From Branchiostoma floridae (lineage: Eukaryota; Chordata; Leptocardii; Amphioxiformes; Branchiostomatidae), in NCBI RefSeq assembly GCF_000003815.2, contig NC_049987.1, positions 14,294,266-14,358,265 of the forward strand: 64,000 nucleotides of DNA, read 5' to 3'. Positions within the stretch are counted from its first letter, which is position 1. Each line of letters begins with the position of its first letter. A program made the translations under genes and the position numbers. This document shows, in pieces, positions 3,313 through 63,652 of the stretch. The notes below the pieces were generated by a model, which saw nothing but the letters and a program-made list of their open reading frames with translations, was not told where the DNA came from and searched no databases.

Positions 3313-5316
3313 ATCCAAGATTACTACAATTCACGAAAAGAAAGCCCGGGATTTTGACTGATTGATGCGTTCTGAACAACCCAAATACTGTATCCCACGG
3401 TTGAATTTCAAGACCATGTCCATCCCGGTTGACTTTGACCACACACGGTCGGCGCTACAGAAACAAAACCAGCGGTACGGCCGTCACAACAAAGCGTCAC
3501 AGCGCCCAGGGACCTCGCCAAGATGAACTACCATTCAACAGTACATAAATCAAATCATATGCCTCAATAACCAATCAAGTGCTTTATCCAAGCACCAAGG
3601 ATAAACCAAATCCTCCAGGGTTTCCTTTGAAAGCGTTTCTTATTTTCGTATGGGATCAGAAAACAAATAGTTTTCTCACAGAAATGACGTTTTCCAAAAC
3701 TTGTGAGTTGAAATATTAGCTTCTTTACACTACAGCGTGTGTGGAATAGCGACATATGCTACATTTGTGAGATAAATCCTTTGTTAGTGGCTCTGTCAGC
3801 GATAATTGGCCTTTTGATTCACCCTTTCAGCTCCAGTGCCGTACGTGATAAGCCAGTCATTCAGAATAAATCTACCAACAAAGGACAGACGATGGCTTCA
3901 CGCAGAAAACATTAGAACAGATAAAAACGCGCACGTCGATCGGACCTGATAATTTGATGAAGCGGAAATCAAAGCTCACCTCTCCGATGGTACTTTGTCG
4001 GTAGAATAATCCGGTTATTTCCAGATCAACAAACGACATGACTCCCCTTTATCAAAGATTTAGAAATGACAAGGCTAGGATCATGGGGCATTTTTACAGA
4101 GTTGCAACTTTGTGTAATAGTTGTTGACATACGTTGTACTATACACAATTGTCGTGGAATAATGTTCTCTACTAAAGTTTAAAGAATAATTAGATCAACA
4201 CTGTGTCAAAAACTTACCCATCTCTTTGCGGACTAAACGACCAGGATAACACATGTACTTGTTCTGAGTACAATGATACATGTACATGTATAGACAATAT
4301 ATTTCTGCATATAGATTTATATAAGCTTCTGAGCCATATGACAAATTCATTGTCATGTATGGTATAGAATATTGTTTATATCAGTATGTGTATTTGAGTC
4401 CTTTTATTTTTGTTCAATGGATTAAAATTAGAAGCTCCACATACACAGTGCAAATGTGATACTAAGTATTGATCAAACATTGCTAATAACCAGTTACATC
4501 CCGATTAACTCATTATCCTCTTCATTAGTAATAGCTAATCTGCATTTTTCGGGATCAAAAACATTTAATTAGGAAGGATTTTGAGTAATCCTTGCTCCAG
4601 CAGGACACGTTGCTATGGTATATTCTCTGTGGGACAAACTTAATTCCAGTCAATATTAAACAGAGGAATACACTGTGGAATTATCAGTTTTCCTATGCGA
4701 AAGCCAGAGGAAGACCACCTAGGAGGACATGGGCTCATCACATGTATCATAGATATGATTGATTCTTAACGAGCCCGATGGGAAATCGACAAAACCATCG
4801 ATTATCGAACCTTGTGTCACTGAAGGACAAACACGTTCTGTCGGGGACAGGTCAAAGGTGAATCAGGAAAAAAACGGGGAAAATATTGTTTTCTATGTAT
4901 AATTGGTGTTTTTTTTCTCAGGAAATGTATGTTCTATGTATTCAGTGTGAAAAAATCGGCATAAATTCAACGAAAATTCATACTTTGTGACAGAAATGTT
5001 AGCTAAATTTGGTGACTGAGACAGCATAGATCTAGTACACTTGTCAGACGACAGACACTTGACCATCAAACCGGGCGTCCTGGGAACGAGTCCCCAGGGC
5101 ATGGCAACGGCGACTTGGCGACTCTGGGAACGATCGTCCGTGACTTTCCTACATCAGATAAGTATAGATCGTTTTTGAGTTGCCATGGAGACAAGAACAA
5201 TGTCCCCTTGGGCTGAGACGTGGCAGAGGCCGTGGCTTTGACGTCTGTGGGAAGATGGCGGACAGGCTTCTCTCATCCAGCAGTCAGCTAAAAAGTTAAT
5301 CAAAATACACAAAGAT
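3313..5316. other. noncoding stretch, possible conserved regulatory sequence at 3.79-4.02 kb
   Basis: No gene seen. At 3790-4020 the sequence is dense in homeodomain/TCF/GATA-like words (gataattgg, acaaagga, gataatttgatgaag, aatcaaag), the texture of a developmental enhancer. At 5178-5200 the word GTTGCCATGGAGAC resembles an RFX X-box and is followed by AACAATG (Sox-like). These are motif impressions; cross-species alignment would decide. Confidence 0.25.
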
Positions 5317-6482: not shown

Positions 6483-7247
6483 ATGGAAGACCGTGAAGAC
6501 CATGGGCACATTGTCGGGACGGAGTCGCCTGGGTCTCCGAGCGTGTCTTCTCCTCTGTCCTGGTCCAGCGGCGGCTCGCCCAGACCGTCTTCTCCCTACA
6601 TGCGGTCCCAGCCTGGCAAGATCCGGAAGGGGAGCAAGAGTCTGAAGAAAGCCGAGAAGCAGTTATCGGAGGAGGAGGTACAGGAGCTGCGGCTGAAGGT
6701 GAACGAGAGGGAGAGGAAGAGAATGCACGACCTGAACTCGGCGCTGGACGGGTTGCGGGAAGTCATGCCGTACGCTCACGGTCCGTCCGTCAGGAAACTC
6801 TCCAAAATCGCCACGCTGCTGCTGGCCAAGAACTACATCCTCATGCTCAACAGTTCCTTGGAGGAGATGAAGCGGCTCGTGAGCGATGTGTACCAGAACG
6901 GCCACCGTGGTCACCACGCGGGGCTGCCGTCGCCGGCGGCAAGCTTACCGAGTCTGCACGGGCCCGCCATGAGACCCTCCCCGCCAATACTCCCGCACAG
7001 CACGCTTATCAAGCCCGAGGCGACGTTCAGCGTGCCGCCCACCACAAGTCTACACCGGCCTGCTACCCACCTCTCCCCGAAGGACCCTCCCCGCAGCTCC
7101 GCGTCTGTCAAGCCCCAGACCAGGCCGCTCGGGCTCCCGACGAACCCTTTCGGCGTCTGGCCCATCCCCTGCTCGTGCCCGCAGTGTCCGACGGACCTCT
7201 CAGTCGGCCTGCCGTTCGGAAAGATGCCGACATTTCACACAAGGTGA
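6483..7247 (+). CDS. Olig-family bHLH transcription factor (gene A), single exon
   Basis: Encodes a 254-aa nuclear bHLH protein of the Olig family. In vertebrates these factors bind E-boxes, usually as repressors, in ventral neural tube, motor neuron and glial specification. ATG 6483 is chosen because an in-frame TGA lies upstream at 6429 and no earlier ATG exists in frame. Order: acidic N-terminus, Ser/Pro-rich stretch with [12 protein letters not shown] (about 27-38), basic linker [15 protein letters not shown] (51-65), basic region plus helix-loop-helix about 69-125 ([32 protein letters not shown]), Pro-rich tail, then a Cys motif CSCPQCP and terminal LPFGKMPTF. No intron is needed, as in vertebrate Olig genes. 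Convergent with paralogue B at 41957-41178, and 174 of 175 bases of its bHLH region match B. AATAAA at 7886-7891 would give a 3' UTR of about 650 nt. Which Olig orthologue this is cannot be decided here. Confidence 0.95.
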
Positions 7248-8498
7248 CACGCTGCCTGATCGGACAATGTATAAACTATTGTACAGAACTGTATACAAAC
7301 TTCAAATCGGGTAAACACTTGTGTTTATCGACAGCTCATTCTTACTATTCACACTATTGTAAATTCGACTTTATAGACTATTTGTCAGGAATGTTTGTTC
7401 CACACAGTGTCTTTTCGTTTCCATTGTGGTAAACCATGAGCCTTCCACCCCATTTCACATGAACACAGGGCCCACAAAATCGCTTCAAGTCTCGAATATT
7501 TCTTGGGATAGCTGACGGCTCACATTCTCACTCACAAATTTCATCTATTGTTTTATGTAAGGCGAACGACAGTGTGGTGTTAGTCTCTTCGTCTTGAGGC
7601 CATGTTTTGTCTTAATCATATTATCAGTTGCTGTTCATGAATGTATAACGAAAAAGAAACAGCAAAAATTACATTGACGTTTGTTGTTCAGTGCTATGTC
7701 CCATTCCAATTCATGCGCGTTCTATGTGTATAACAAATTTGACCGGGGATTTAATACCGGTTCTCTTCATGTAGCAGATCATACTATTGACTGAAGTATC
7801 TACCAGTTCTGTATATGTCAAAATGAATCTGTCCATTTGTCGTCCATTTTACCCTGTCCATGTACATATTGAAAATCTTGAAGTAAATAAACGCTTTATT
7901 TTTCACCATACTTCTTTGCTTCTTTGTTCATTTGGACGGATGTCTGTCTTCCCGTCTTTGTTACATAACAGTATAAATTTCATTGTGGAACATATAACTT
8001 TAAACGGAACGAATATGAAGCCGTTTATGATGTTAACAACTCAACAGTGGTTTCAAAGTGTCTGAAAATCGTCTATCTTACACATGTTCTCTAAAAACAC
8101 TGTAGGAAAGTGTCCAAAACAAAAGATTTCGTTTACTCTATATTGGAAAATGTATGTTTTCATTATAAAACCAAGCTTACTAAATCTTGTAAAAAAGGTA
8201 TTGGTGTTGTACCCAAAGCATGTCTTTAAACCAAAAATGTTGTTGATATGAATGTTTATTTTGTAGAATATTTAAACTTGTGTTGTAGCTTACGTGCCAT
8301 AGACAGTACTAAATATTTACAATGCTAACGAAAAAATGGAAGAAAACGAATAGATAGTCACAACAGAGAACAGCAACAGATCCTGACAGAATACTTAGAT
8401 AATTTCCTTTCCATCTTAAACCTGTAGCTCTTCTTAGAGAGCAAAAAAATTCTTCCTAAACACCTCGACAAAAAGTTTAACAAAGAAAATCAGCGGGT
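7248..8498 (+). other. Olig A 3' UTR and downstream spacer
   Basis: No second gene. A canonical AATAAA at 7886-7891, followed by T-rich sequence, is the best polyadenylation signal for Olig A. The conserved block starting at 8499 therefore probably lies outside the transcript. Confidence 0.45.
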
Positions 8499-8611
8499 TG
8501 TTTAAGGGAAGCAGATGTGCATTAGAGCGCTAACGAGGGTTACATATCGCACCCGTGGATAATGACAGGTTGGACGGACAGGTCCCCCTCCGGGCCGAGC
8601 TGGGCTCCTCC
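8499..8611 (+). promoter_or_regulatory. near-identical noncoding element downstream of Olig A
   Basis: Bases 8499-8599 are identical over 101 consecutive positions to the reverse complement of 40118-40218. After one mismatch at 8600, 11 more bases match (8601-8611 with 40106-40116). It starts 1252 bp after the Olig A stop; its partner starts 960 bp after the Olig B stop in the same orientation relative to the gene. It contains an E-box CAGATG (8512-8517), ATTAGAGCGCTAA, CGCTAACGAGGG and GGATAATGACAGG (TGACAG is a Meis/TGIF-type half site). Identity covers every position with no shared start-to-stop frame, so protein coding does not explain it. Most likely a duplicated enhancer or other cis element. 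Gene conversion is the alternative cause of the identity. Confidence 0.75.
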
Positions 8612-11600
8612 AGAGTCTTTGTTGGCGGCAAATCGTACCAGAGAAAAATGTCCATCTCCTTTTCTTAGTTTCTTAAGTCTTTTTTGCTGATAATGAATGA
8701 ATGAATAAGGGTTTATGAACGCATCTTGCAGCAAATACAATCCGCTTCTAGGTCACAAAGAGGTTAAAATCATAGCTTAGCCTCCCTCTCCCCTAGACGG
8801 TGATCACGCTGCTCTCTCACTGCGACCTAAAACGGATGTGTGTAACTTTTCATTTCAATACTGGGTATATCATGAAAAATGTTTAAGTGTGGCAACAAAA
8901 CATACAAAGCGTAAAAAGATTCGTTTCTTTCTTGTACAATTCGTTGAGCGATCTGTAAAATTTTAGATAACAAAGAGCGCGAGAGCAATGCAAAGGGGCA
9001 TTACCGGTTAAAATTCTTTGCGCACTTCTAGTAACTGTTACATGATGGTTTTGGTTCTGAGACTTTGTAAGATGTCGGCCCATGTTCTATTAGAGCAATA
9101 TTTTTTATATAGTTAACAATTTACGGAACTTTTAAAAGAAAAACATACGGTATGCACTGAAGAAGATGTTTAAAGCGCAGAAGCCACACTAGTTTATACA
9201 GGAACTTTACGACTCTCTTAATTGTTTACATACAGATAGCACTTAGTTTTCGTTTGCAATGTTCATAAGTCTACCTAGCAGCAAGTGTGACGTGCATTCT
9301 GTGTCGGTCCCCATTCTGTACTGGAAAAAAATGTATTTATGAGCATTCACGTAATGTTGTCAATCAGTCAATGTTGTTGATTCTTCACATACAATTTTCT
9401 TTTTACTTTTGCGATTTTCACACATAATGTTTACAATATATTCAGTTTTTACCAACTAGGAATAGATTCAAAGTGAGCATTTTGTTTTCCACTGAGGAGA
9501 AACTGATGTTGTAATTTCCAAACAAACGTCAGCATCAGTTAGATAACAACGAAGGTCATCTGAATTAGCCACAACCTCTTTACAAAGGAAGGGACGTATC
9601 CTTTGGTTGAAAGCGGCTTTAAAACTACAATAAAAAGTATAACAAGCAGTTTGCTGAGCACATTGTGAATTCACGTTTTTCTCGAGCGCTTTCTCTGTGT
9701 GCAATCGGTTAGCTTCGGGTGAAAGGAACCTTGTGTCAAGCATATCTATTCACACCCTGCTCAAAGAAAACAATTCTTAAACAGTATTTTTGTGCTCTCG
9801 TCATGAAAACGATTTCAGCATTTCTTTCAGACACTGGTTGACTGTTGTTTGAAGCTTAAATAAATTACGAATATTTCTGTGTATTCACTTCAAAACAGAT
9901 TTGCGCAACCAAAATGACAATGGCAAAAAGTCACATTGAGAAAGGAACATATTTCGGGCTTGCAATGATTCATCATTCATTTTACATTTTCAACATTATG
10001 CGTGTTATTGTACTGGATTGATGATTACTTTGATGAAGTTGGTATGAAATATTCTTAAACTGTACGTACTCTTTCTTTGGCCGTCCCTTGTTTTGTTTTA
10101 TACTTATTAATAACATGTAGAGTTTAAAACGAAACAGTACAGAGTAAAAAGGATTCATAGTGGACCGATAAAAAGTTTAGATCCCTACATTATGCATTAA
10201 CCGCAGCGATTGTTCTCTAACTACATCATAGATTCTTCCAGCCCACCGACAGCATGGCCGTCCTCTGGTAACCAGCCCGGCCATTCTGTCCACCGCAGGT
10301 GTGGGGTTCGACTCCCCGCTGTCCCGCTTTGTAACCAGGTGCTGATCCATAATTCCAGCTATGTGACATTTGAACTTCCATTTTGCCCATGGCTAATCGC
10401 TTTCCCCGGTGTTTAAGGCTCCCCTTCAATCTGGCTAAACGCGCTCTATGGAATCTGTCAGCTTCGGTCCGCTGTGGCGCGCAAATGAACAATGACTGAG
10501 AAACCATAGAAAATTAGTCCTTTACACCGCAGACTATCACTTGGACATCGGTCACTATTTGGATCACTGGTAAAAAAAGATTTATGGAGTGGACTGAACT
10601 TGGGGTCACGCTCCCTCCCGGGGCTATTTTATTCAATTTTACCCGCTGAAAATGAGAAAATATCAGGGCGGCGGGGATAACACGGAGAGCATGCTGGTAA
10701 CAAATGTTCACAAGGTGGGGAACGAACAGTGACAGATTCTGGCAAGTCGACAGAAAAAGAGAAGCCGTAGTTAAGGGTACGGGACAAAAGAAGGGCCACA
10801 CAGCGGTCGGTACAAGAAAGATGTCGTAGGGAAGAACAAGGAAACCGTGTGTGTTTTTAAACACAGATTTTCTTGTTCTTCGTACGGCACTCGTGAGTGT
10901 AGCCCAAACGGAAAGTGTGAGTGTAGCCCAAACGACATAAATACATGCATTTCTAAGAGGTAAGTAATATTTGCAATGCTGAGTCATTTTAGTGTGTTAC
11001 AACACGAAACTAAACCTGAGAAGTATTAGATGAAAGAATGCACGAGCAAACGAACAAATGACTGGGTAGATGGATGGATGGACGGATGCATGAATGAATG
11101 AATGCATGAAAATAGATGGATGATTTGATTAGATGAATTACCTTTATTGCACTTCCCTGTATAACTTGTATGCGTAACATTATGTGTATATACTTTATCA
11201 TAGACATTCATAGTAATGATATGCCACATGAAATGCAAGAGTGTTGCTGCCCATATTTTCGTACGGAATTCCACATTCCATACGCTCAAAGATTATCCAA
11301 CATGTTCCAAAGAGATTCTTTATCTTATTGTTACATCAGTTGAATAATTGACATTTCCAAAGAGCCTCCATATCCTGACGCGACCGCTAAAAGACTCAAG
11401 CCAAGAGGTGTGAATAGACTGTATGTAATTATCCATATTTTCAGTGTGTCATTAAACAAGGCGAGAACAAACATCCTATATGGCCGTACGGTTGGGTGGA
11501 ACAGCTGGTGGATAGGTGCCCGTATGAGAAGATGTTGGGTACATTGTGTGTAATGACTGCTGCCCGCAGATAGCTGGAGGGACAGAGGGATATGTACAGT

Positions 11601-17934: not shown

Positions 17935-18736
17935 CTACCGCCCGACAACCATCTGTTTGAGATCCTTGAGGCTGTGTTCTCTGGCGACCTGCAGGGCGTG
18001 GTCCAAGGCATGGATCTGCACCAACAGCTTAGCTACCTGCTTAATGCTCTCTCTGTAAGGAAAGGGGATGCAAAAATGAGCAAGTTGTGGGGTAATCAAA
18101 ATATGTTACAACTAGACACATGTTTGATGTAGACACAGGCTTTGTGGCACTGGAACTAACCTACTCACTGTAAAAACCAAAAACTCTCCTTGTTTTAAAT
18201 ATGAGGTTCAACAACCAAACCTCCAAACAACCAAACAATCAAACAAATAATGATTTTCCAGAAATTTGGACTTCAGGTCAAATAGCAAATGTAACATAGC
18301 CAGACAATATAATTACTGTTGGTCACTTCTTTTGTGGCCAAGAGCATGTTATCATTTTATTTAGTTATGAAGTTTTCATAGCTTTAGAATGCTACAACAA
18401 ATACTGTGGATATCCGCCAAATAATGTTAAATTTTGGACAACACTTACGACATTTGTCAGTTTCTTAAAAACATGAAATCTGTAAAAACAGGTACAAATC
18501 AACATTTTACCCGTCATGCATATGGCGCATCTGAAGACTAAAAGCAAGGAGGTTAAAGAAGGACTAAAAGCAAGGAGGTTAACCTCCTTGCTAAAAGTCA
18601 TATTTTGCTGTATAGTTTATTGTGTCCACCCCTTACCTTGCTTTTCTCCTGTCTATGTCGGGACAGCCGATGCTGTTCTTGTGTAGGTTGAAGTTTAGGA
18701 AGATTTTAGGATCTCTTTCCATTGCAACTACCATCT
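17935..18736 (-). CDS. possible two-exon gene fragment of unknown function
   Basis: Minus strand. The upstream exon (about 18736 or 18734 to 18637) reads MVVAMERDPKIFLNFNL ... RRKA and ends at a strong donor (CAAG/GTAAGG). The downstream exon (18052-17935) follows a good acceptor (ttccttacag) and reads ESIKQVAKLLVQIHALDHA ... QMVVGR to TAG at 17937-17935. The exon phases agree (two bases plus one), and the second exon forms an amphipathic helix-like segment. If the ATG at the first exon is real, the product is about 71 aa; otherwise this is the 3' end of a larger or truncated gene. An AACCTCCTTG short-insert terminus abuts the first exon at 18743-18752. I do not recognise the family. Confidence 0.4.
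18538..18597. mobile_element. ultrashort palindromic insertion with 7-bp flanking repeats (plus a half copy)
   Basis: The perfect 20-bp palindrome CAAGGAGGTTAACCTCCTTG (18571-18590) is flanked by CTAAAAG at 18564-18570 and 18591-18597. A third CTAAAAG at 18538-18544 is followed by a half copy, CAAGGAGGTTAAAGAAGGA, ending where the second CTAAAAG begins. The arrangement looks like an element reduced to its two 10-bp terminal inverted repeats inside a 7-bp target duplication. Similar cases are at 27505-27540, 28287-28314 and 17072-17092. Confidence 0.6.
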
Positions 18737-20998: not shown

Positions 20999-21177
20999 AG
21001 CCACTCGCCACCCTGAAGGCATCAGCTGAAGGTTTTCTGATGCAAAACCCAGTTTGTAAATTCTTGCTGTTGGCCGGCCCCTCCCCTGGTGAGGTCAACA
21101 CGAGACAATGCAGTCCACGAGCACTAGAACAAAGGGTTTTGTCGCCTCCGGAACAAGGCTTGAAATCGACTTTTCTA
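20999..21177 (+). repeat. dispersed repeat, copy 1 (plus)
   Basis: About 175 bp, roughly 80% identical to the reverse complement of 46031-46205. Shared blocks include ccactcgccaccctgaaggc, gttggccggcccctcccctg, and gcactagaacaaagggtttt followed by gtcgcctccggaac. No coding frame is supported; this is an interspersed element of unassigned class. Confidence 0.75.
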
Positions 21178-21320: not shown

Positions 21321-21862
21321 NNNNNNNNNNNNNNNNNNNNNNNNNNNNNNNNNNNNNNNNNNNNNNNNNNNNNNNNNNNNNNNNNNNNNNNNNNNNNNNN
21401 NNNNNNNNNNNNNNNNNNNNNNNNNNNNNNNNNNNNNNNNNNNNNNNNNNNNNNNNNNNNNNNNNNNNNNNNNNNNNNNNNNNNNNNNNNNNNNNNNNNN
21501 NNNNNNNNNNNNNNNNNNNNNNNNNNNNNNNNNNNNNNNNNNNNNNNNNNNNNNNNNNNNNNNNNNNNNNNNNNNNNNNNNNNNNNNNNNNNNNNNNNNN
21601 NNNNNNNNNNNNNNNNNNNNNNNNNNNNNNNNNNNNNNNNNNNNNNNNNNNNNNNNNNNNNNNNNNNNNNNNNNNNNNNNNNNNNNNNNNNNNNNNNNNN
21701 NNNNNNNNNNNNNNNNNNNNNNNNNNNNNNNNNNNNNNNNNNNNNNNNNNNNNNNNNNNNNNNNNNNNNNNNNNNNNNNNNNNNNNNNNNNNNNNNNNNN
21801 NNNNNNNNNNNNNNNNNNNNNNNNNNNNNNNNNNNNNNNNNNNNNNNNNNNNNNNNNNNNNN
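21321..21862. other. assembly gap (542 N)
   Basis: Run of N. Open frames crossing it are meaningless. Confidence 1.
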
Positions 21863-33108: not shown

Positions 33109-35119
33109 CGTAAGTGTCCGGATTGATACAACCAGCGGTAGCAGTGTACCCGTAAAACCGGTGTGTTACGCTGAATGGTAGATATTCCCACAGTAAAACA
33201 ATTCTTTTGCTTCTGAGGGCATCACAACAAGCTCTTAAAACTTTAATTTATGGCAAGACAACTTTTAAAGTTACAATGTCTGAATAACATATCAGACATC
33301 TAATGAATTCTAACTGCTTTATGATAGCCTGTGCCAAACTTGTGACTTTAGAATTTCAAAAGTTATTATTCAACACGGACAAAAAGGGACATTGTATCTA
33401 AAGTTGAGTCAGCAACGTTTTTGTCACCTCTAGAACCAATAAATTGGTTTTCGCCATTCAACACAGTCTAAAGATAAAATATCTTTTGAATCTAACACAA
33501 CTCCTTTGGCAAACTAGATATGGACTTGATCCAAATAGTGAGTGATGGAGAAGCCATGAGCCGGGTCCCAAAAGAGGATTTTCTACGCTTTTCCAATTAT
33601 TGTTGGTTTGTGCGGCCGGCCGGTCAGAGGTGACAGCGGCCATAGATTGTCCCGATCCGTACGGAATGGAGCACCTAAACACTGGGAAAACGATTGGTTC
33701 CGTTCAACAATGGAAGTTCAGATGTCAACTGGTATGGCCTGGTAACAAGGGTGGAGCTGGCAATGTTATCCCGTACCCGACTCAACCGTGGAAGCACCTG
33801 GGGAAAATAGAACCACTCAGTCACTCAGCCTACACTGCTAAAAGTATAATTTTGCAAGAGAAAGGAAGATATGTCGTTTGTTATAGAGCTACTTAAACTC
33901 GTCTTCCCCTCTTCTTTTGCTAGAATGAGAAACTCTTGTACTTCTTTTTTTTTTGTCACCCAATCTTCGACAATTTACTTGTGCAGGAATTTAGATCATG
34001 TCTAGTGGATCTTTTTTTGTGTGCAAACTCTCTGTCGACGAAAGTACATAATTTATACTTGACTTACAAGTCCCTTAAAAATAGCGAAAATTGGACACAT
34101 AATTATACAGATGAAATGCCAAAAAGCTACATCTGTACTCCTGGGCCGGCTAAATGCTGTGGCAAGTTATCTGTCTATTTGGTCAATTTGTACTATTTTT
34201 CCAACGACCTCTGAAGTCATTACAAAGCAATCCCTACTCCTGATGAATGTTAGATATTAGCATCATTTGGAGTTTGGCTCAAACCTGACAAAATAGCCAG
34301 GTTTTGAACTCCTGGTTGTAAATGTAACGTTACGATGACGATCTAGAATAAGCTTAGTGGGTTCTGATTAAATCTCGCTTATAGCAGCCCAACCAACATC
34401 CGGACGGCCAGAGAAGGGCCAATTACAACTCCGCACAGCAGAGCTTGTGTGTTAAACACAGACCCCATGGTTCCTATCGTCTTGCCCTTTGTCTTGGTGT
34501 TGACAGGTGCAGTGCCACGCGCTGCAGTATGTTGAGGAATCCCTCCTCAGTACGGTCGTGCCTTGTGAGGAACTACAACAGTCTGGCACACTTGTGTCCG
34601 GAACTGATCCATTCCAGAGATTCAAAAGGTGCCCGAACAATACTGTTTCTTACAAACTACAATGTAAACTTTCCACACTCTACAACAATCAGGCCGAATT
34701 CAAAAAAGGGAATCAGACGAGTCTTAGATTTTTTTCACACAAAAAGTCGTCTAGTCGGCTACATTGCAAAGATTCATATTAATGATTTTGACCTTTTAAT
34801 AACACCAAACACCAGACTGATTGTTTAACTACTATTTTCTACACAGATTAGACTTTACAATTTCGTCATATGTGTATTCTTCTTCACAACACTATCTTAC
34901 AAGACTGACGTTTTTCTATTTGAAGACTTTGCCAATGGCGTCGGACAGTTGGAGACTTGCAAAGCGCTATACCATAGGCATCAAGAACGGTTGGTCTACC
35001 TGTATGATGTCGTTCAATATGTGAATATGCTTTATATGAGAATCTGTTTTTCAATGATAAAATGAACCCATGACGTTATCAGACTAACCCGGAGGTCTGT
35101 TCCATCAGCCCGCCTTACG
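33109..35119. other. noncoding, no gene recognised
   Basis: A 98-codon open frame at 33600-33896 (+) and a 127-codon frame at 34445-34828 (+) have no recognisable domain, splice context or homopolymer-free conserved motif. They are left as chance frames. Confidence 0.4.
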
Positions 35120-38227: not shown

Positions 38228-40105
38228 AATGTAACGTTAAGTATAAGTAAGTCACCAGGAAGATGTTATTTGTAACACATGTTTGGCAGGCATGTGGAAG
38301 CTGCTAGTTATATTGGTCCACACAAATTGTCCATATGAAGAAGCCACTTCTGTTTGATAACAACAAGCTGTCATTTTACAGTAGTTCTATGTTATATCTA
38401 ATCGCATCAACACATGTTGATATTGTAGTCGTGACAGTTTGTAGTTCTTTTCTCTCCTTGTTAATTGATCGTTGTGTTTAATCTTTTGTTCGAATAGTAG
38501 TTTAACATCATGCATTTCTATTGTCTTGCTCATTTTCAAAATAACATTACTTTCGTGGAGGAGGCTTGTTGAGGGAAGTGATTCAAATAGTATCAATTTT
38601 TGTAACCTGAATCAATATACTGACAGCTTGATCAATGTTGTACTTCCGTGTTTCCTACAGCAAGAAAAAACACGTCACATAACGTTAACTATTTACATAT
38701 TGTGTAATATCATCTCTCAGCTCTCGTTCCCATCACTCCGAAGCTTAGGAAAAAGAATAAAGGTATAAATGATATCATTCATGATTACGTCTATAACATG
38801 TAACAGGTATTCATCGAAATCGAATGACATTGAACGATATTTCAGTTTCTATTTTATGATACATTTCACCATTACATGTTTTCTTCCCAATCTCTTGTGC
38901 ATGTATTTGTCATAAAGCATTGACGGCAAACTACAGTAGTATCAATGGAGAACACGAGGAGATAATAATGGAAGATACACAAAAAAGCCGACAATCAAAC
39001 AAGACAAGAGGCGAAGAGATACAATTAATGCAAAAATTGATTTTTTACTCGCCCCCTCCTCGTGTGACCAATTACGGCACAAAACCTGTGTGTTTACGGA
39101 GTGATTATGGAGCATCTTTGGCGTCCGTGTGTCACAAACAGAGACACCATGGGAGGGGGAAGACACTTGGTGCCATCCGATGACACGGTGTCTGGACGGT
39201 TCTACTGTCCAGGGGACGTAATCATATACTAGTAGCTCATCGCATCTTCCCAATAATCTTCATACCAGAAGGCGTCATTCGGGACTCTTTGTCTACTTTG
39301 ATCAGTAAAAGGAAAAATCTACACACTTAGTTTCAGTTGGGATAAACTCTACTATAGATGGTGGAAGCATGCACGACATGAATGCAGTTATGACTGTTTG
39401 CGTATAAATCATAACATTTCTTTCAAAGCTGGTACTGAAACGTTCATCTTTGAAATCTGAAAGAATTCGTATTATTGAGATAAAGGATAAGTTAATGATG
39501 CGGGTAACAATGAGATGAGCTTTAAGTGCACACTATTACATGTAGTTTCAGAAACTCTATGATCTTGGATATAGGAATAACTACATTCATGCTACATGCA
39601 ATATTCAAGTTACATGTACACCAGGCCCTTTAGGTACAACACCATTGCATTGATGTGTAGAGAGTTTTTAACAATAAACCTCACAAAGCCAATGATTGCC
39701 TTAAATCCGTTGTAATCCCTGGTAAATGTCAAAGATAACGTTTGTCTGTCATTACTGTCGTGCGTCAGTCTATTCATACTCCATACGTTGTTGGTACATC
39801 ACTATGATAGCTAATGGAGTCCTGTGTTGTATCAATGTCCCATCAATGGGCGGCAGTACGCCGTAAAGACATCATACTAACGAACGGTTAGACTTGCATA
39901 CGATGGCCAAACATTTTAACAGTTCAACGTAGACGAAGGAAAGGTGTTCAAGATTGATTTTGTGGCCAAATGATTTAACCCGTATTTTGTTGGTGGGTGT
40001 TAAATTTTAGTGCAATTTTTATGAGATTCGTGTTGAGGAAATCGTCGGCAAGATCTCTTAGCGCCCACTCGGGGTCCAGAAGAACAATGGGAGAACAAAA
40101 ACACC
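38228..40105. other. noncoding, no gene recognised
   Basis: No gene seen; short frames on both strands lack motifs. Confidence 0.4.
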
Positions 40106-40218
40106 GGAGGAGCCCATCTCGGCCCGGAGGGGGACCTGTCCGTCCAACCTGTCATTATCCACGGGTGCGATATGTAACCCTCGTTAGCGCTCTAATGCAC
40201 ATCTGCTTCCCTTAAACA
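40106..40218 (-). promoter_or_regulatory. near-identical noncoding element downstream of Olig B
   Basis: Reverse-complement partner of 8499-8611: 101 identical consecutive bases (40118-40218), one mismatch at 40117, then 11 identical (40106-40116). It begins 960 bp after the Olig B stop. Flanking sequence on both sides is unrelated between the two copies, so the edges of similarity are sharp. Confidence 0.75.
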
Positions 40219-41177
40219 GCCGCACTTGTCCATTGTGGGGAAGACGGCGGGAGTTTCGTGGCATTCGGGCTTGTTAACAAGGGATATGACAGCATGCTGG
40301 ACTAGAGAAAGGGCCTAAATCCATTGTTATCAAGCACTTCATATGTGCAAAAGTGTGTATCACTTTAGTTGTTTACGCGATCATTTTCATACATACTAGT
40401 ACCACGTTCTGATTCTCACTTCATTAAGGTTCTCGTGCGTAGTTTTTAACGCCAGCAACGGCGTACATATAATCTTAAGTCATACTCTTGTGAATCCCTT
40501 GTGCAAGCAGCACTATTATACTTATATGAGATATAGTTGTGTAATTTGTACGCTACTCCAACCATAGTTCTGCTTAAAACACTAACGTATCATGACCATA
40601 CAATACCGTTAGTCCCACACGTTTATATATAATCAATTGAATCAGACAACAATGTTCATTTCATATATAAGTAAATTTAATATCGCTTTGTACAACACAA
40701 ATTCCATAGATATTTACACACATGTGCTCGTTTTCGAACAACCTGAGAATTCATGTACATGTAGTCACAGTTTAAATGTCCACGTTGTAGTCTTTACATG
40801 ACCGGCCAAGTACAGTATACGGAGTAGAATAAACTGGAAATTATCTATACTGACGAAATCAGTGAGCACAGAACCTTGCTGTTCAGGATCCTTACATTTA
40901 AAACAAAGGCACTTTTGTCAGGCACAATATCTTGACAGAACCAAAGCCCATATTTCGGTAAAACGGTGTACATATTTCAAAGAAAATACTACCCTATCGA
41001 TATCAGGTATTGTACATTGTACTTGAAAATGCGTTTGCACATTGCTTGACACTGTATGACTAGGCATTGCTTGATACGAAATCAATGGGACTATTTCTTT
41101 GCAGTATATGCATGTACTTTAAACTAAACGACATGTCCATTCTATGATACAGTTCAGTAGTCTGCAATACACTGCTG
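40219..41177 (-). other. Olig B 3' UTR and downstream spacer
   Basis: AT-rich, no gene. On the minus strand an ATTAAA variant signal lies near 40675-40680, about 500 nt after the stop; no AATAAA was found on that strand in the interval. The true polyadenylation site is uncertain. Confidence 0.35.
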
Positions 41178-41957
41178 TCACCTGGTGAAGGTTGGGAGCT
41201 TTCCAAAGGGCAGGCGATTGCTGGCGTCGGGCGGGCACTGCGGACACGCACAGGGCAGCGGCCACGGGCTGAAGGGGCTTCGGGCATGGTGATGACTGGA
41301 GCCGAAGGCGCTGCTCGTCGGTACGGTACTGCTGCTCACCGGAGTGTGTGGAGGAACGATCGGGGTCGGAGGCATGGCCAGCCTGTGGAAGGGCGGTACG
41401 GCGGCCCCTGATGGTGTGGGGAGGGTGGTTGAGGGCAGTCCGGCGCGGCGAGTGTGTTGAATGTCACTCACGAGCCGCTTCATCTCCTCCAAGGAACTGT
41501 TGAGCATGAGGATGTAGTTCTTGGCCAGCAGCAGCGTGGCGATTTTGGAGAGTTTCCTGACGGACGGACCGTGCGCGTACGGCATGACTTCCCGCAACCC
41601 GTCCAGCGCCGAGTTCAGGTCGTGCATTCTCTTCCTCTCCCGATGGTTGACTTTCAGACGGAGCTCCTGGAGTTCTTCCTCCGATAACTGCTTCTCGGCT
41701 TTCTTCAGACTCTTGCTCCTCCTGATCTTCCCCGGACGGGAGCGGGAGGAGGGTGAGGAGGGGGCGGGCGAGCCGCCGCTGGACCAGGACGATGTCGGTG
41801 AGGACGGCCGGGGAGACACAGACGGCGAGGTTCTGTTGAACATCGCGGCGTCCGGAGTCTGTTCCATCTTCAGAACCCACTTGGCTGTCTCAATGTCGGT
41901 GTTGCTCATATCGTTGCTTCGTGACAGTTTGTTGTTGAAGAACTGACCACGCTTCAT
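41178..41957 (-). CDS. Olig-family bHLH transcription factor (gene B), single exon
   Basis: Encodes a 259-aa protein, paralogue of gene A at 6483-7247, starting at ATG 41957 and ending at 41178. Order: N-terminal extension absent from A (about 1-40), Ser/Pro stretch with [12 protein letters not shown] (58-69), [15 protein letters not shown] (81-95), basic region and HLH about 99-155 ([32 protein letters not shown]), Pro-rich tail, CACPQCP and [11 protein letters not shown] at the C-terminus. The conserved tail in both proteins suggests a functional motif beyond the bHLH. An inverted CCAAT box (ccaattgg, about 42038) lies about 80 bp upstream of the ATG. Expected role as for A: E-box-binding regulator in neural patterning. 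Convergent with A across 34 kb. Confidence 0.95.
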
Positions 41958-43329
41958 GTCGAGCGACTATTTAGGGCAATAGTGAACAATAGAACGAAGG
42001 TAGACAAAAGGATCTCGATGGCGTATATTACAATACAGCCAATTGGAGCAGAGTGGTTGCAGTGGGCGTTGCTGCAAGAGAGATGTCCAACCAGGGAGGG
42101 CGTCATCCAGAGTAAGGGCTCCGCCTTACGTTTGTCACGTGAGCTGCTCAAAGTCGGTGCTTTTTTGAAAACGTTGGTGAATCTCTGGTGAAACAAAGGC
42201 TTTTATACCTTCAATCATTGTCATCAATGCATTTCAAAATACATTGCAACTTAAAGCGATACTACTGAACAATATGTCGTTTTATGAAGTCGTTCTTCAC
42301 AGGTACTAGGGTCTGCTTTTTGCTTCTTTGCAGAAGAAAAATAAGGAATACGATTTCACAACTTCCCTTGCGAAAGTAAAGTGAACAATGTTGTATCATG
42401 ACAATGTACTTCTAAAAGTATCCATTTTTGTCAAGCCTAGGTACAACAAAAGACAAGTTCGATACATCAAAATTCGTCTGGAGAATACTTGACAATCGCA
42501 AAGGTGAGTCGGCAATAACACAAAGAAAAGCTATGAGCTTTTGGTTCCCAATAAGTGATAGTACTCTTAACTGACCCGCGAGCTCTTGTAAATAGTTTGG
42601 GCAAATTTGAGAAGACCAATAATGTACAGTTAACGTACATCAAATAGAATCTTACGTTCTTCTAACGACAATGTTGAAAGCCACCGTCCACCCAAAAGCA
42701 GCATATGTCGCGGTGCTGCGTGCAGCAGGTCGCTTTGTTAAGTCCCCTCGCCTGTCTGATCGCATCTTCAGAACCTGGCGGAAGGCAGGATAATGACTAG
42801 TTTAAAATGTCCCCACCACAAGTTCGCGCTTTGATTCCTGAGATAATGACCGGTTAGACCGTCTGCACCAGAAGCTCGGGCCTGGGACGTGTCTCGTCCA
42901 GTTTCACGGCGCTGACAGGACTGATGGAGGCGGACAATACAGAACTCCTCCCCGGTACAAATCAGACGACATTTCCGACTGACCCCATTGACCTTCGCCG
43001 GTCGTTAACACAAGCAAAGATGATCGGTGGACTTCAAATGTCATTTGAAATAAATTTTGAGCGGATCCAAAACGTTCAGTATAATAGTCAAGAATAAACG
43101 AAAGTAGAGATAGTTGCAGAAATAAAACAAAACTTCCCATGAATAAGGACATATTAAGGAGTAAACAGTGATTGTGCTCAGTGAGTGATTGAGGAAGAAA
43201 AGAAGATAATGCCCGAAGGAAAAGTGTATATTTTAATAAATTGTTGACCATCCTATTCCGCCAAAACCAATTCTTACCCCATAACAGAGGGCGACAGAGA
43301 GAGGGAGTGAGTGAGTGAAGATATTGTCT
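41958..43329 (-). promoter_or_regulatory. upstream region of Olig B, with repeated GATAATGAC words
   Basis: No gene. GGATAATGACTAGTT (42788-42802) and GATAATGACCGGTTAGACC (42842-42860) repeat the GATAATGAC core of the downstream element, 0.85 kb upstream of the Olig B ATG. AGCAGCATATGTCGCGG (about 42700) carries a CATATG E-box. A plausible proximal regulatory region by motif content only. Confidence 0.35.
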
Positions 43330-43496
43330 TATGCTCTCCAAGCAGATGTTAGGTTCTGGCTGTTTTATTAAACGTTTTTTTAGTCGTCTTGTACCGTCAA
43401 AGGTTTTGACGGTACAAGATACAAAATGGAAAATCCGATAAAAACGACAAAAAAACGTTTAAAAACAGCCGGAGCCTAACATCTGCTTGGAGAGTA
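43330..43496. mobile_element. MITE, 167 bp, TACTCTCCAAGCAGATGTTAGG-type TIR, 7-bp TSD
   Basis: Left CTCTCCAAGCAGATGTTAGG (43334-43353) is a perfect inverse of CCTAACATCTGCTTGGAGAG (43475-43494), with further matching inward (ctggctgtttt / aaaacagccgg). The candidate duplication ATTGTCT is at 43323-43329 and 43497-43503. The centre holds a second perfect hairpin, CTTGTACCGTCAAA / TTTGACGGTACAAG. Same family as 12046-12233. Confidence 0.85.
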
Positions 43497-46010: not shown

Positions 46011-46030
46011 ATTTGTCCCAATCAGGAAAG

Positions 46031-46205
46031 AAAAGGCCAATTTCAAGCCTTGTTCCGGAGGCGACAAAACCCTTTGTTCTAGTGCTCCTGGGCTGTATTG
46101 TGTGGAGGTGACCTCACCAGGGGAGGGGCCGGCCAACATCAGGAATTCTCCGGCAGGTTTTACATCTGAAAACCTCCAACAGAAGCCTTCAGGGTGGCGA
46201 GTGGA
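46031..46205 (-). repeat. dispersed repeat, copy 2 (minus)
   Basis: Reverse-complement relative of 20999-21177; see there. It sits directly after the tandem repeat, with no flanking duplication found. Confidence 0.75.
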
Positions 46206-50983: not shown

Positions 50984-51162
50984 TGTGCCCTGTAAGTGTA
51001 AAGTCAACAAACATTTTTTTGTTTCAGTCAATAAATTTAGCATGAATTCTAAAGAATTCACAGAAGAGCAATTACCCAATTATTCACCATATTGCAGGCA
51101 GTTTAACCAAATGATCTGAGTAGGCCTACATCACATCACATCACTGACCATTTAAGAGACTA

Positions 51163-52592
51163 ATGGTAGGATTGCTAATAGAGCAATCGTGTGGAATTTC
51201 TCTGTAGGAAGTGACCTTCGACCTCACTGAGCGACATCCGCCGTCTGAGTCACGGCAGGGCTCGCCTCTCGCTTATCTTTTCGTCCAAAATTTCTGAATT
51301 TTAGCTCTGATCAAGAGCGTCTACCCAGTGTACAGCGTGTATGAACTACTGAGGCACACGATTCCACCAGTAGACGATCTGGGACCGCTGGATTGTTCAC
51401 GGAACCGGCCGATAAAGTGCATCACCACGACGGGCGAGCTGTCCGAACACCACGCCATGCATGGCCAGGCGCGCCGTCTAGCCGCTTTCGACAGCCAGTA
51501 ACTCGCTCTACCTGGGGCTACGAAACATCACGTCACTGAAACTCTGTCTCAGACAACCTTGCAGATGCTACGAAGGACTTGCCCTCTCTCATCGGGGACG
51601 TACAGTCCTATATTGGAGACCAAACGTCGACCGCCCCCCACCCCAACAGTTCCACCGAATCTTCTCGAATTCTCGCGCCCTTCCCGTTCTGGCGAGATGT
51701 CCGTGATTTCCCGTGACAATCATGGTTCCATCAGCAGCGCGACAGCTACGTACACGAGTGACACTTCCTTCTCTGCGTTCCTTCTGTTCACCATCGACAA
51801 CACAAGGAAACCAGCTCCAGCGGTGTGCTGAGGACCCTCAGGACCCCTCACTTCACAGTACTAAGTTAGGCTCACCGCGCCGACGCACCTGTTTACGGCC
51901 CGAGTCTACGCTGTTCGACAGTGCCCAGCGGCGTTCTGCAGGCGGATCTTCACAAGTCCTGGACTGTTTCTTTGTCAATTGAACTGGAATTTTATATTCT
52001 CTCTAATTTACTACAATAACAATACCACCTTTCTTCACACATTTCCGCTACGCGGTTTGGGGCCACCTCACTACGCTCGGCTTGGCCGTTGATGTCTTTG
52101 CACAACCTGTAAGCCTCTCATCGAGCAGAATAAAGACATCATATATGCCCCAAACCGCGTAGCTCTCTCCCTGTGTCATCTCGGAATACGTAAGAGTAAT
52201 TATGGTAGGATTGCTAATAGAGCAATCGTGTGGAATTTCTCTGTAGGAAGTGACCTTCGACCTCACTGAGCGACATCCGCCGTCTGAGTCACGGCAGGGC
52301 TCGCCTCTCGCTTACCCACCATCCCACCCTTGTCGCATTGAAGTTTCCTTTCACAGAATGTTAAACCGTACCACTACATGTGTATGTACATTCACTGCAT
52401 TGTTTGTTGTAATAGCCAAGATCCTGGTCTTCGACCCTTCATTGTTTGTTATAATCGGCAAGACCTTGGTCTTAGGCCGTTGATGTCTTTGCACAACCTG
52501 TAAGCCTCTCATCGAGCAGAATAAAGACATCATATATGCCCCAAACCGCGTAGCTCTCTCCCTGTGTCATCTCGGAATACGTAAGAGTAATT
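51163..52592. mobile_element. non-autonomous tyrosine-recombinase (Ngaro/DIRS-order) retroelement with split direct repeats
   Basis: Structure A1-body-B1-A2-B2. A1 51163-51275 and A2 52202-52314 are identical (113 bp). B1 52084-52201 and B2 52475-52592 are identical (118 bp). B1 abuts A2 at GTAATT/ATGGTAGG, the arrangement used by Ngaro/PAT-type elements to restore a circular intermediate. Total 1430 bp, with no target duplication, as expected. No RT or recombinase remains; the body holds one 67-codon open stretch (51298-51498) and other short frames, so it must be mobilised in trans. The identical repeats suggest recent insertion. It lies just upstream of the sulfotransferase start exon. Confidence 0.85.
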
Positions 52593-58374: not shown

Positions 58375-58510
58375 ACAGTAGTGTCCGTACCCCAATAGTG
58401 TCCGTACCCGGACCCCCAGTAGTGTCCGTACCCAGGTAGTGTCCGTACTCCCAGTAGCGTCCGTACCCAAGTAATCCCAAGTTTGTCCGTAACCCCATTT
58501 GTCCGTACTC
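58375..58510 (+). repeat. minisatellite, unit about 17-20 bp (AGTGTCCGTACCC)
   Basis: At least seven imperfect copies of (A/G)GTGTCCGTACCC with variable CAGT/CAAT spacers. It leads directly into the ~206 bp satellite. Confidence 0.8.
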
Positions 58511-58949
58511 AAATAACTTTCTACCTTCTGCCCACGAGTTTTACTATGATATTCAAGTGTTGAAAGTAATGCACACTTTGTTTGAAATTCCCGAAGTTCA
58601 AATGTAAGGGTTCGCCATGCGGTTACCGAAGCGTTCGCTTAGCGTTAGCGGTTACCCCCAGGTGAGCCTTCATTCGTTTGTAGAAAAGTAACAACGTAAT
58701 TGTTGGTACTAAAATAACTTTCTACCTTCTGCCCACGGGTTTTACTATGATATTCAAGTGTTGACAGTAATGCACACTTTGTTTGAAATTCCCAAAGTCC
58801 AAATGTAAGGGTTCCCTATACGGATATTACCGAAGGGTTTCGCTTAGCATTAGCGGTTACCCCTCATGTGAGCCTTCATTCGTCTGTAGAAAAGTAACAA
58901 CATAATTTTTGGTACTCAAATAACTTTCTACCTTCTGCCCACGGGTTTT
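58511..58949 (-). repeat. satellite block, unit about 201-207 bp, left of the retroelement
   Basis: AAATAACTTTCTACCTTCTG starts at 58511, 58712 and 58919, giving just over two units before the N gap. The sequence is the reverse complement of the block at 63653-64000 (shared ATGATATTCAAGTGTTGA, CTTAGCGTTAGCGGTTACCC). Noncoding. Confidence 0.9.
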
Positions 58950-59049
58950 NNNNNNNNNNNNNNNNNNNNNNNNNNNNNNNNNNNNNNNNNNNNNNNNNNN
59001 NNNNNNNNNNNNNNNNNNNNNNNNNNNNNNNNNNNNNNNNNNNNNNNNN
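58950..59049. other. assembly gap (100 N, probably of unknown true size)
   Basis: Exactly 100 N, a common placeholder length. The 5' end of the large retroelement (A1 repeat and N-terminal gag) should lie here. Confidence 1.
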
Positions 59050-59395
59050 GTCGTGCAGAACACGCATTTGGCTGGACCTCGATTCTCCACATACAGTAGC
59101 ACTGGTGAGAGATCTCAAGCGTGACTACCTGCGCCGCCCGACGGACGACGACGACGTCTCGCCCACAGTCAAGGTCAAGGGCAAGGCGATCAGCAGTGGG
59201 GCACCCTGTGCAGGTTACCAGCGGGGAACGTGCACGTATGCATCTGACCATCTTGGCCCGTCCGGCGCCAACGCAAAGCACGTGTGCAAGTACTGCCACA
59301 AGTTTCGACCCGACGTTCCTCTGCAACACACACCTAAAGATTGCCCCTACGCCGACAAGGCCACACGCGACGCCTACGTGGCAGCTAGGGCATGA
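59050..59395 (+). CDS. gag-like ORF1 of the Ngaro-like element (3' part)
   Basis: Open from the N gap to TGA at 59393-59395, 114 codons visible. Contains a Cys/His cluster, CAGYQRGTC ... H ... HVCKYC ... H ... DC, of the kind found in DIRS-order Gag proteins, presumably for RNA binding. The ATG lies in the gap. After the TGA, the same frame continues open into the pol region; the stop is followed by CTAG, a context known to favour readthrough. Confidence 0.7.
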
Positions 59396-61601
59396 CTAGC
59401 TTTCGGGTCGTCTACTACAGACTTGAACGCTGAGTTAGGTGATGCATCAGACGTTCTTCACTTCGACAATCACTCTAGCGTTACCTTTAGTCCCCAATCA
59501 GAATTTGACAATGATTCCACTATTACATTAGGTTCCCAATCAGACTTAAGCAGTAGAACCGGCCCTGTTTTGGGTCACACTACTCTCACGGAGACTCACG
59601 GTCAGGAGCCCGTCACCCTCGTCATGAACCCGCCGCAGAGCGGGGAGGCCACGGAGTGCAGCAAGGCATCGCTGGCAACGTCCCAAGACAGACCACACTC
59701 TGCATCTTCAGTCGGTAGCCTCACGCAGCACACCAGTAATGCCACCGCGGAGTCTCGGCGTTCATGCCCCGCACATACCGGACTGCGCATACAGCCAACA
59801 CGACTTCCCGGCATCTCTTCGTGCTCAGGCCCGCACAGCTTTGCAGCTGGTTCAGTCGGTCTCGTCACAGCGGACATGTGGTCAGCAAATACCGTCACGA
59901 CCCTTGACGTGCCTTCGCCTAAACCGATTCCTCCTCGCTCTGCCATTGAACTTCATGAGCTAGTGTACGACTCCGGGACACTCAACTTCCAGGGTTTACG
60001 TCTCCCCGTCAGTTCCAACTTGAAGATACCAGTGTGGAGGGCCACCTTGTCCCAGTACCACGACAGTAAGGTCGCAGACTTCTTAGAATTCGGCTGGCCC
60101 GTAGGTTACACCGCAGCGACACTGCCTCGGTCCACGGCACGCAACCACACGTCGGCGACACAGTACGGCGCTGATGTTGACGCGTATATAGCCAAGGAAA
60201 CGAGACTCGGCGCTACCCATGGCCCCTTCGACGCTCCTCCCTTTGAGCGACTCACATGTTCGCCATTACAAACAGTGCCAAAGCGAGATTCTGACAAACG
60301 CCGAGTAGTTCTAGACTTGAGCTTTCCACCCGGGAATTCCGTCAACAGTGGTATACCCGGGCACGAATATCTGGGAGAGCAATTCAACCTTATACTCCCT
60401 AGTTATGACGCCTTCGAGGATCTACTCCGAAGCAAGGGTCAAGGCTGCTACATGTTTAAACGGGACCTTAGTCGCGCATACCGGCAGATACCCAGTAGAC
60501 CCGCACGATCACCAATCTCCTGGGCTACTGCTGGCGAGGCAATACTACTTTGATTCATCGTTCCCGTNNNNNNNNNNNNNNNNNNNNNNNNNNNNNNNNN
60601 NNNNNNNNNNNNNNNNNNNNNNNNNNNNNNNNNNNNNNNNNNNNNNNNNNNNNNNNNNNNNNNNNNNNNNNNNNNNNNNNNNNNNNNNNNNNNNNNNNNN
60701 NNCAGCATATCTCGCCCTGGGTCAAACGTTTGACGATCTCGGCTTGGCAGAGTCTATAGAGAAGGCCACTCCGCCCTCTACCGAGATGACCTTCCTTGGC
60801 GTCGGCTACAATTCCAGCGTGATGTCCAAGGCGGTGACACAAGACAGACTCACTGACACCCTGAGCGAACTCGCGCTGTGGACAGACAAGAAGAGAGCAA
60901 CGAAGCGAGAAGTTCAAGCCCTTCTCGGCAAGCTCTCCTTTATCTCGGCCTGCGTCACACCCGGCCGCGTCTTCTTATCGCGTATCATCACGACCATGAG
61001 GGGCTTACGCAGCAACCATCACAGGGTCCGCATCAGTACTGAATTCCGCAAGGACATCAACTGGTGGCTCCACTTCCTGGTGGAATACAACGGCGTCTCA
61101 CTCTTGCCAGACATAGCGGGTCGCAGGGCCCCTGACGTCCCAACTACAGATGCGTGCCTTTCCGGCTGTGGAGGGACCTTCAACAAAGAATTCTTTCACG
61201 CCGAGTTCCCGCCGGAAATCGCCGAGTCCAATCATCCAATACACCGTCTAGAGATGCTAGCAGTCATCGCAGCCTGCAAAGCCTGGGGCGCTGCCTGGAC
61301 CGGATGCACGATAGACATCGCCTGCGATAACTCCGTGACAGTACACGTTATAAACTCGGGACGCTCGATCGACGCCTTCCTGCAGTCGTGCGCCAGGGAG
61401 CTCGTCTACCTGCAGGCCAGGCACGATTTCCACCTCTCGGCGCACCACATTCCTGGGGTCGACAATAGATTGGCCGACTTTCTGAGCAGGTGGCACACCG
61501 ACGCCAAATACCAGACCTTGTTCCGCGAAGCCACGGTCAGCGAAGCATGGACAGAAGTCTCCGCAAACCACAACTGGTTTCACTTCTCCCATTCCTGGTA
61601 G
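59396..61601 (+). pseudogene. reverse transcriptase-RNase H (pol) of the Ngaro-like element, frameshifted and gapped
   Basis: A Ser/Thr-rich leader (to about 59990) is followed by RT: IPVWRATLSQYHDSKVADFL, FGWPVGY, LQTVPKRDSDKRRVVLDLSF, FKRDLSRAYRQIP. At about 60491-60494 one extra base shifts the frame; the RT continues in the next frame (VDPHDHQSPGLLLARQYYFD) into the gap 60568-60702, where the YxDD catalytic motif should be. After the gap: thumb/connection (TFLGVGYNS) and RNase H with TDACLSG, LEMLAV, CDNSVTV and DNRLADFLSR, i.e. the acidic active-site set is present. Stop TAG at 61599-61601. Not functional as assembled; a sequencing error at the frameshift is possible. Confidence 0.85.
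60568..60702. other. assembly gap (135 N) inside the RT
   Basis: It removes the fingers/palm segment expected to carry the YxDD motif. Its length is a multiple of three, so the downstream frame appears continuous. Confidence 1.
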
Positions 61602-61636
61602 AAACTCCTCTCGCGGCTCCTAGTGCAGAACGCTAG

Positions 61637-62695: not shown

Positions 62696-62805
62696 CCACG
62701 CGACAACATCGCCGGGACGACCAACTTCTCTTCCAACCCCAGAGAACTCTTACTCACCAACTCACACTCTCATCTCCTTCTTGGCACACCTCACTCTGTT
62801 CGGCC

Positions 62806-63652
62806 TGGCCTTTGACATACAGAAATGTACAGACTCTGGACTACCATTAAAAATGTCATGCGCCAAGCTGTCTGTTCGTGATCATGAGTTGGTGTAATTA
62901 TGGTGGTACCGCGCCATCTGGCGAGGTAGCGGGGAATTCCACCACGGGCCGGTCACATGACTCTCCCTGGCCAATCGCAGCAGTCTCAGATGAGAAGCTC
63001 TTCCGTCAAGTCAGACATCCCACGTCCACCCCGGCAACACAGACTCTCCCGAAGACTCTCTGCGAGGCACGCTCACAACCACCCAGCTCAGCAGAGTCAG
63101 CGCACTCTCCCCTCCCGTGACCGGGCTTCATAGACTTCAAGCAGTAGCAGAACTCACATTACGAGCAGACTCCTATTATTGCATCACAGGACAACTGACT
63201 CTAACTCTGTGCATAACCAGTCCTTTTTAGTTTAGCAGTAGCCAACTTTCGCTTAGTTTATCAAGGTTCGTAGATCAGTTAGGTTAGCAGTTTGTTATAT
63301 AAGACTCGTGAGCAGAAAAGGCTCTCACCAAGCGCTCAAGCATCCGGCCGATGCCACGTTCTCCACAAACGGAAACTTCTAGTTAGCTTAACGACTTGTT
63401 CCGTCGGTTAGGTCGCTCGACTCCTATTATATCAAGTTTACGTACCTCGTGTTACTTAACTCTTTCACCTGTTAACGCATGCCTTCGACGTTATTCGCAC
63501 AAGCCTAGTTCTCGATCATAATGTTAAAGCATACGCTTGATGCCTGGGTCGATACCCATGGCCTTTGACATACAGAAATGTACAGACTCTGGACTACCAT
63601 TAAAAATGTCATGCGCCAAGCTGTCTGTTCGTGATCATGAGTTGGTGTAATT
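62806..63652 (+). repeat. B1-A2-B2 split direct repeat end of the Ngaro-like element
   Basis: B1 62806-62899 and B2 63559-63652 (TGGCCTTTGACATACAGAAA ... GTTGGTGTAATT) flank A2 62900-63558, which begins ATGGTGGTACCGCGCC. No difference between B1 and B2 was noted by eye, suggesting a fairly recent insertion. A2 should match the missing 5' A1. Confidence 0.9.

Follow-up and report, generated by a model that had tools for sequence, protein, structure and literature searches.

CNE1, a noncoding element beside three linked Olig genes of Branchiostoma floridae, was probably kept by selection and made uniform by gene conversion

Each of the three Olig genes that form a single cluster in the Branchiostoma floridae genome is followed by one copy of a noncoding element, here called CNE1, and the core of this element is the same in all copies. 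The sequences suggest, as the probable explanation, that CNE1 is an Olig cis-regulatory element that has been kept by selection and has also been made uniform by gene conversion. The window, i.e. the whole stretch of 64,000 nucleotides that was analyzed (C9:14294266-14358265), contains two of the genes:

6483 to 7247, + strand: coding sequence of Olig gene g1, 254 aa, with HLH domain
41178 to 41957, - strand: coding sequence of Olig gene g2, listed with 259 aa, with HLH domain
C9:14284910-14285647, outside the window: Olig gene g0, beside the third CNE1 copy

The g1 and g2 proteins both contain the HLH domain, and both match lancelet Olig-type proteins best. Relatives of g2 begin with the Met of MSNTD, which is internal in g2 (window position 41909) and to which g2 was trimmed for the synonymous-site and tree analyses. 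When the genome was searched with protein sequence, four of the 14 matches listed cover g1, g2 and g0 (the latter in two pieces), and the next-best match after these loci, with 49% over residues 34-166 on C2, is probably another bHLH family.

The CNE1 copies of the window and the flank that is needed below are:

8499 to 8623, + strand: CNE1 copy of g1; the core (8499-8599) is common to the three copies, the tail (8600-8623) is shared with the g0 copy only
40094 to 40218, - strand: CNE1 copy of g2; the core (40118-40218) is identical, the tail departs from g0 and g1 at 4 of 24 bases
40219 to 40278, - strand: left flank of the g2 copy, 56/60 identical to the g0 flank and unlike that of g1

Bases 8499-8599 equal the reverse complement of 40118-40218 at 101 of 101 positions, and the identity is 112/113 through 8611; both values had been given in the original prediction and were reproduced. 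Stretched to 8623, it is 121/125, and the corresponding blastn match (8499-8623 against 40218-40094, 96.8% over 125 positions), with an E value of 2.9e-54 in the window, excludes chance. A search of the B. floridae assembly (513,431,437 bases in 431 contigs) with the 125 bases of the g1 copy gave three candidates, and all three were scored as CNE1 copies. The third copy (C9:14286893-14287017) lies about 7.2 kb before the window, adjoins g0, and is identical to the 8499 copy at 125/125 positions, and the g2 copy is 97% identical to the g1 copy. All copies are thus linked within 48 kb of a single Olig cluster, and their 101-base core does not differ at any position among g0, g1 and g2. With three CNE1 copies and three Olig loci found in the genome, there is one CNE1 per Olig gene. 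The element lies downstream of its own gene and in sense orientation in all three cases, at 1245 bp (g0), 1251 bp (g1) and 959 bp (g2) from the stop codon, which for the two genes of the window bears out the earlier statement that the copies share their relative orientation and lie about 1 kb past their own stop.

Could these copies simply result from a recent duplication, from a haplotype that was assembled twice, or from a dispersed repeat? This is very improbable and largely refuted. Some islands of similarity between the g0 and g2 loci are 94-98% identical, and a gap of 542 N at 21321-21862 splits g1 from g2, both of which speak for such an origin. The many unlinked copies by which a repeat family would have revealed itself, and which had been named beforehand as a refutation, did not appear in the B. 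floridae genome: all three matches lie in the cluster, and all three adjoin Olig genes. A misjoined duplicate, named as the other refutation, is unlikely as well, since the surroundings of the copies cannot be aligned, and outside CNE1 the similarity of g1 and g2 immediately drops to background. Two of the g0-g2 islands lie upstream of g2:

42791 to 42998, - strand: upstream island of g2, which agrees with the matching place in g0 at 202/208 positions; two copies found in the genome
44503 to 45557, - strand: far-upstream island of g2, identical to g0 at 989/1055 aligned positions; the genome search gave two copies

Altogether, the g0-g2 islands are 93-100% alike, whereas the intervening DNA is at the level of unrelated sequence. 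Identities of the three spacers are 43.6%, 43.0% and 45.1%, compared with 43.0%, 41.5% and 40.9% for three unrelated controls, which were made for the first spacer only. A recent segmental duplication would have left alike spacers and therefore does not fit, and background-level DNA between islands is also unlike a second haplotype. Moreover, Branchiostoma belcheri carries orthologues of both g0 and g2. As far as tested, CNE1 is genuine, being neither repeat nor artefact. One further g0-g2 upstream block (94.9% over 533 columns) contains an interspersed repeat and was excluded from the evidence. An interspersed repeat, about 175 bp long, has copies with 86% identity at 21001-21176 and 46029-46204, and a further one upstream of g0.

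With regard to the nature of CNE1, a coding exon was rejected, as all six frames hold a stop within 113 bp. An RNA gene was rejected as well, as Rfam gave no hit for the window at the gathering thresholds and no hit for 8400-8700 even with E values of up to 5, and as the element in five folding runs was no more stable than shuffled sequences (z -0.02 to 1.17). A viral or prokaryote origin was rejected on the result that an exact 23-mer of the core has no match in viral contigs and none in prokaryote genome contigs. CNE1 could in principle also be transcribed as part of a long 3' UTR or as a noncoding RNA and act as RNA. The sense orientation and the similar distance from the stop codon in three genes agree with this idea, as does the fact that g0 has no canonical poly(A) signal within 1.8 kb of its stop, due to which a 3' UTR location is possible in g0. 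In g1 and g2, however, signals are found earlier:

7886 to 7891, + strand: AATAAA, 639 bp after the g1 stop and before CNE1
40676 to 40681, - strand: ATTAAA, 497 bp after the g2 stop and before CNE1

With these signals before the element, none is needed after it in g1 and g2, and the Rfam and folding results speak against a function as RNA as well, which altogether renders transcribed CNE1 improbable.

It is likely that CNE1 is regulatory DNA, and an enhancer that is used by the three Olig genes would be the likeliest type. The core contains one E-box, CAGATG (8512-8517), a TAATGACAG stretch, TGTTTA, two ACAGGT, and the near-palindrome TTAGAGCGCTAA. E-boxes are the type of site that is bound by bHLH dimers, and the words in the core may be sites for factors of the bHLH, homeodomain (together with TALE), forkhead and ZEB/Snail types. 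As expected for a duplicated noncoding element, CNE1 is noncoding and found at the same place and in the same orientation beside each paralogue (3/3). Ultraconserved elements are stretches of 200 bp or more that are identical across mammals, and this length is not reached by CNE1 with its 101 bp (three copies) or 125 bp (g0-g1). The GC content is 55% in the core and 33-45% in the flanks; the higher value of the core fits biased conversion, which proves nothing.

That interlocus gene conversion acts within the Olig cluster is very likely, as indicated foremost by the coding regions. The DNA around CNE1 and most of the two coding sequences had been described as diverged, and this is correct for the flanks, which are at background; the coding sequences, however, are unevenly diverged and contain uniform blocks:

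6709 to 6883, + strand: bHLH-coding block of g1, which equals g2 at 174/175 nt, also at synonymous sites
41467 to 41641, - strand: bHLH-coding block of g2, partner of 6709-6883
6631 to 6673, + strand: coding block of 43 nt, identical to 41719-41677 of g2, synonymous positions included

In the 60-codon bHLH core, the fourfold sites are identical at 27/27 (g0-g1), 26/27 (g1-g2) and 27/28 (g0-g2) positions, as opposed to 11/27, 9/22 and 13/26 in the C-termini of the same pairs. For the N-termini, the values are 39/40 for g0-g2 and 9/19 for each of the other two pairs. Comparing the conserved part with the C-terminus, Fisher p is at most 4e-6 for each gene pair (for g0-g2, N-terminus, linker and core were pooled against the C-terminus). 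Of 20,000 shuffles, none (g0-g2), none (g0-g1) and one (g1-g2) reached a run of unchanged synonymous codons as long as the longest one observed. In the linker before the bHLH core, 27/30 residues are conserved between g1 and either g0 or g2, and yet 8/27 synonymous codons differ, and protein constraint alone therefore does not set the pattern; the fourfold identity of the bHLH block goes beyond what selection on the protein explains. Along the g0 and g2 genes, the mosaic is 98% and then 59%, with 458/467 identical positions over N-terminus plus bHLH and 152/256 in the C-terminus. It has to be considered that the islands look functional, as one starts at the ATG and another one equals the bHLH domain, and that constraint would also give such islands and could suffice, but it is hard to believe that almost all synonymous sites and 1.1 kb of upstream DNA should be constrained.

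Other lancelet proteins bear on the same question. At least five lancelet Olig-type proteins are among the matches listed (120 of 2491 and 120 of 2251; cluster representatives). By their C-termini, P0003 and P0004 of B. belcheri are the orthologues of g0 and g2, P0005 of B. lanceolatum is that of g2, and P0001 is that of g1, the latter coming from a hybrid of B. floridae and B. belcheri, with the parent being uncertain. The B. belcheri orthologues of g0 and g2 both lie on a contig of 3,724,039 bp, which is taken to be one and the same, and their existence implies that the g0-g2 duplication is older than the split of B. floridae and B. belcheri. In the C-terminus, 33 sites unite orthologues and one unites species, and trees favor the orthologue grouping by a delta lnL of about 139-140 over the species groupings. 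In the N-terminus plus linker, two sites unite g0 with g2 within a species, and none unites orthologues; these two common changes of the B. belcheri g0/g2 orthologues are an inserted threonine and an alanine-to-threonine exchange. For N-terminus plus bHLH, where few sites vary, the orthologue tree is no more than disfavored, with an AU p of 0.067 and a KH p of 0.22. Trees and site counts were based on four sequences with all-gap columns scored as constant, P0005 was trimmed to an internal Met, and the chimeric P0002 was omitted from the trees. The N-terminal changes in B. belcheri thus may favor concerted evolution in a supportive, not decisive, manner. The omitted P0002 is a public B. floridae protein in which the g0/g2 N-terminus and bHLH domain are fused to the g1 C-terminus, with a junction that falls within a block that is identical among the Olig genes. 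As an intact g1 frame is present in the window and in P0001, P0002 is probably a gene-model artefact, the alternative being a real chimeric transcript, and the uniformity among the Olig genes probably accounts for this model.

The CNE1 copies look mosaic as well; the evidence consists of five sites in the tail and a short flank on the left. Left of the core, g0 and g2 are alike (56/60) and g1 is unlike, and right of the core, g0 equals g1 for 25 columns, of which g2 differs at 5. Informative sites are 35 for g0=g2 versus 4 for g0=g1 in the left flank, and 0 versus 5 in the tail (Fisher p 1.2e-4, which is approximate in view of the few sites and of a g1 left flank that may be non-homologous). 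Changes in the tail thus were tolerated in g2, and nevertheless the tails of g0 and g1 are identical, although the left flank marks these two copies as the less related pair. It is fairly probable that conversion acted on CNE1 itself, with the caveat that 125 bp are short for this process without flanking homology.

Is constraint alone sufficient, i.e. could 101 bp have been intolerant of change since the duplications, without any conversion of CNE1? The core has sharp edges in all three copies and clustered motif-like words inside, and neutral evolution would hardly have left the core unchanged, even at the divergence of the g0-g2 upstream region: the probability of 101 unchanged bases is 0.0005 at 7.3% divergence, the blastn value of the g0-g2 upstream block, and 0.08 at 2.5%. 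Nevertheless, we regard constraint alone as unlikely. It does not account for a tail that differs at 5/25 positions in g2 and at 0/25 between g0 and g1 despite a left flank that pairs g0 with g2, and an enhancer role of CNE1 leaves unexplained why the synonymous sites of the bHLH block are equally uniform. In addition, a second noncoding element, CNE2, which likewise lies downstream of the three genes, serves as an internal control:

10315 to 10566, + strand: CNE2 near g1
33527 to 33727, - strand: CNE2 near g2

CNE2 is only 66% identical between g1 and g2 (205 columns, 10364-10566) and 62% between g0 and g1 (220 columns, 10315-10525); the 78% between g0 and g2 refer to 50 columns only. On the other hand, the above probabilities imply that conversion alone, with no constraint, could account for the core only if it had happened very recently, and a joint action of the two is therefore the better bet. 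Of the two explanations that the original prediction had placed side by side, the cis element is plausible with indirect support only, and conversion is well supported by the synonymous mosaics and more weakly by B. belcheri, with the CNE1 mosaic relying on few sites. A third noncoding element, CNE3, is common to the g0 and g2 loci (3810-3974 against 36172-36008, 71%), and its order relative to CNE2 differs between loci. A genome search with CNE3 recovered itself alone, which shows the limited sensitivity of the search for diverged copies. Likewise out of order is a 63.6% match of 8820-8961 to the g0 locus. A match of 18555-18596 to 27549-27506 also pairs with a neighboring inverted copy and was set aside.

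Selection and conversion are not alternatives. Both readings are compatible because conversion requires an island that is still alignable. In the combined mechanism of selection and conversion, CNE1 would be a cis-regulatory element of the anciently duplicated Olig paralogues, with one copy 0.96-1.25 kb downstream of each of g0, g1 and g2, and would work as an enhancer to which transcription factors bind. Purifying selection would preserve a homologous island of about 100 bp while the flanks decay, and the paralogues could then swap this island via gene conversion. The same exchange seemingly affects the bHLH-coding block and, in case of g0 and g2, also the upstream islands and the N-terminal part of the coding sequence. 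Conversion would end where homology ends, which would result in the sharp edges of CNE1. A more specific and rather doubtful variant is that the E-box-containing core and the bHLH block are co-homogenized in a concerted evolution of an autoregulatory loop, in which the Olig proteins would bind CNE1, so that the factors and their own shared control site stay matched.

Both a duplicated noncoding element and conversion between linked paralogues are known kinds of phenomena. Vertebrate developmental genes have duplicated conserved noncoding elements, which are defined across species and are well short of identity between paralogues. CNE1 resembles these as it is noncoding and occurs once per paralogue at a comparable place, and it differs from them in that its copies are identical in the core and known here from B. 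floridae alone. With respect to conversion, the earlier view that the situation is unusual for invertebrate paralogues is too strong, as the passages concerned of a study on the annelid Capitella teleta describe gene conversion in and next to the homeobox of a linked tail-to-tail Dlx pair (PMC3199776). Judging from these passages, both cases deal with linked, inverted paralogues of developmental transcription factors in which the DNA-binding domain is nearly identical in nucleotides and the remaining gene has diverged; the Dlx tract comprises 150 bp with some intron included, and the Olig cluster differs by having also a uniform intergenic element 1 kb off, and this in three genes (PMC3199776). 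For the duplicated Hox clusters of the butterfly fish, concerted evolution has been proposed and conserved noncoding elements have been surveyed (PMC4166920). Homogenization is thus proposed for duplicated developmental loci in both systems, but there it concerns whole clusters after genome duplication instead of a short island in a local cluster, and conversion of noncoding elements is not claimed in the passages concerned (PMC4166920). In the open-access literature, we found no report that combines the duplication of a noncoding element with conversion between paralogues, and the titles and abstract starts among the matches listed contain nothing on CNE1. Identity between paralogous noncoding elements is easily taken for extreme functional constraint, and if conversion contributes, such identity overstates constraint. 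In that case, lancelets would offer a testable case of concerted evolution of regulatory DNA and the coding domain of its own gene.

Several further repeats were seen in the window. The region 58499-64000 contains retroelement-like frames (59624-61601) that are interrupted by a run of N and bracketed by the repeats 58499-58949 and 63653-64000, which recur directly and inverted; the region presumably resembles a DIRS-type element, and a Pfam search with two frames gave no family. The neighboring blocks 1717-1807 and 1899-1989, of about 90-130 bp, are 72-79% alike. Upstream of g2 lies an imperfect, foldback-like palindrome (43334-43494, 76% over 170 columns), and direct repeats of about 122 bp occur in 51153-52592, where the pairs 51153/52191 and 52081/52471 are 97.6-99.2% identical.
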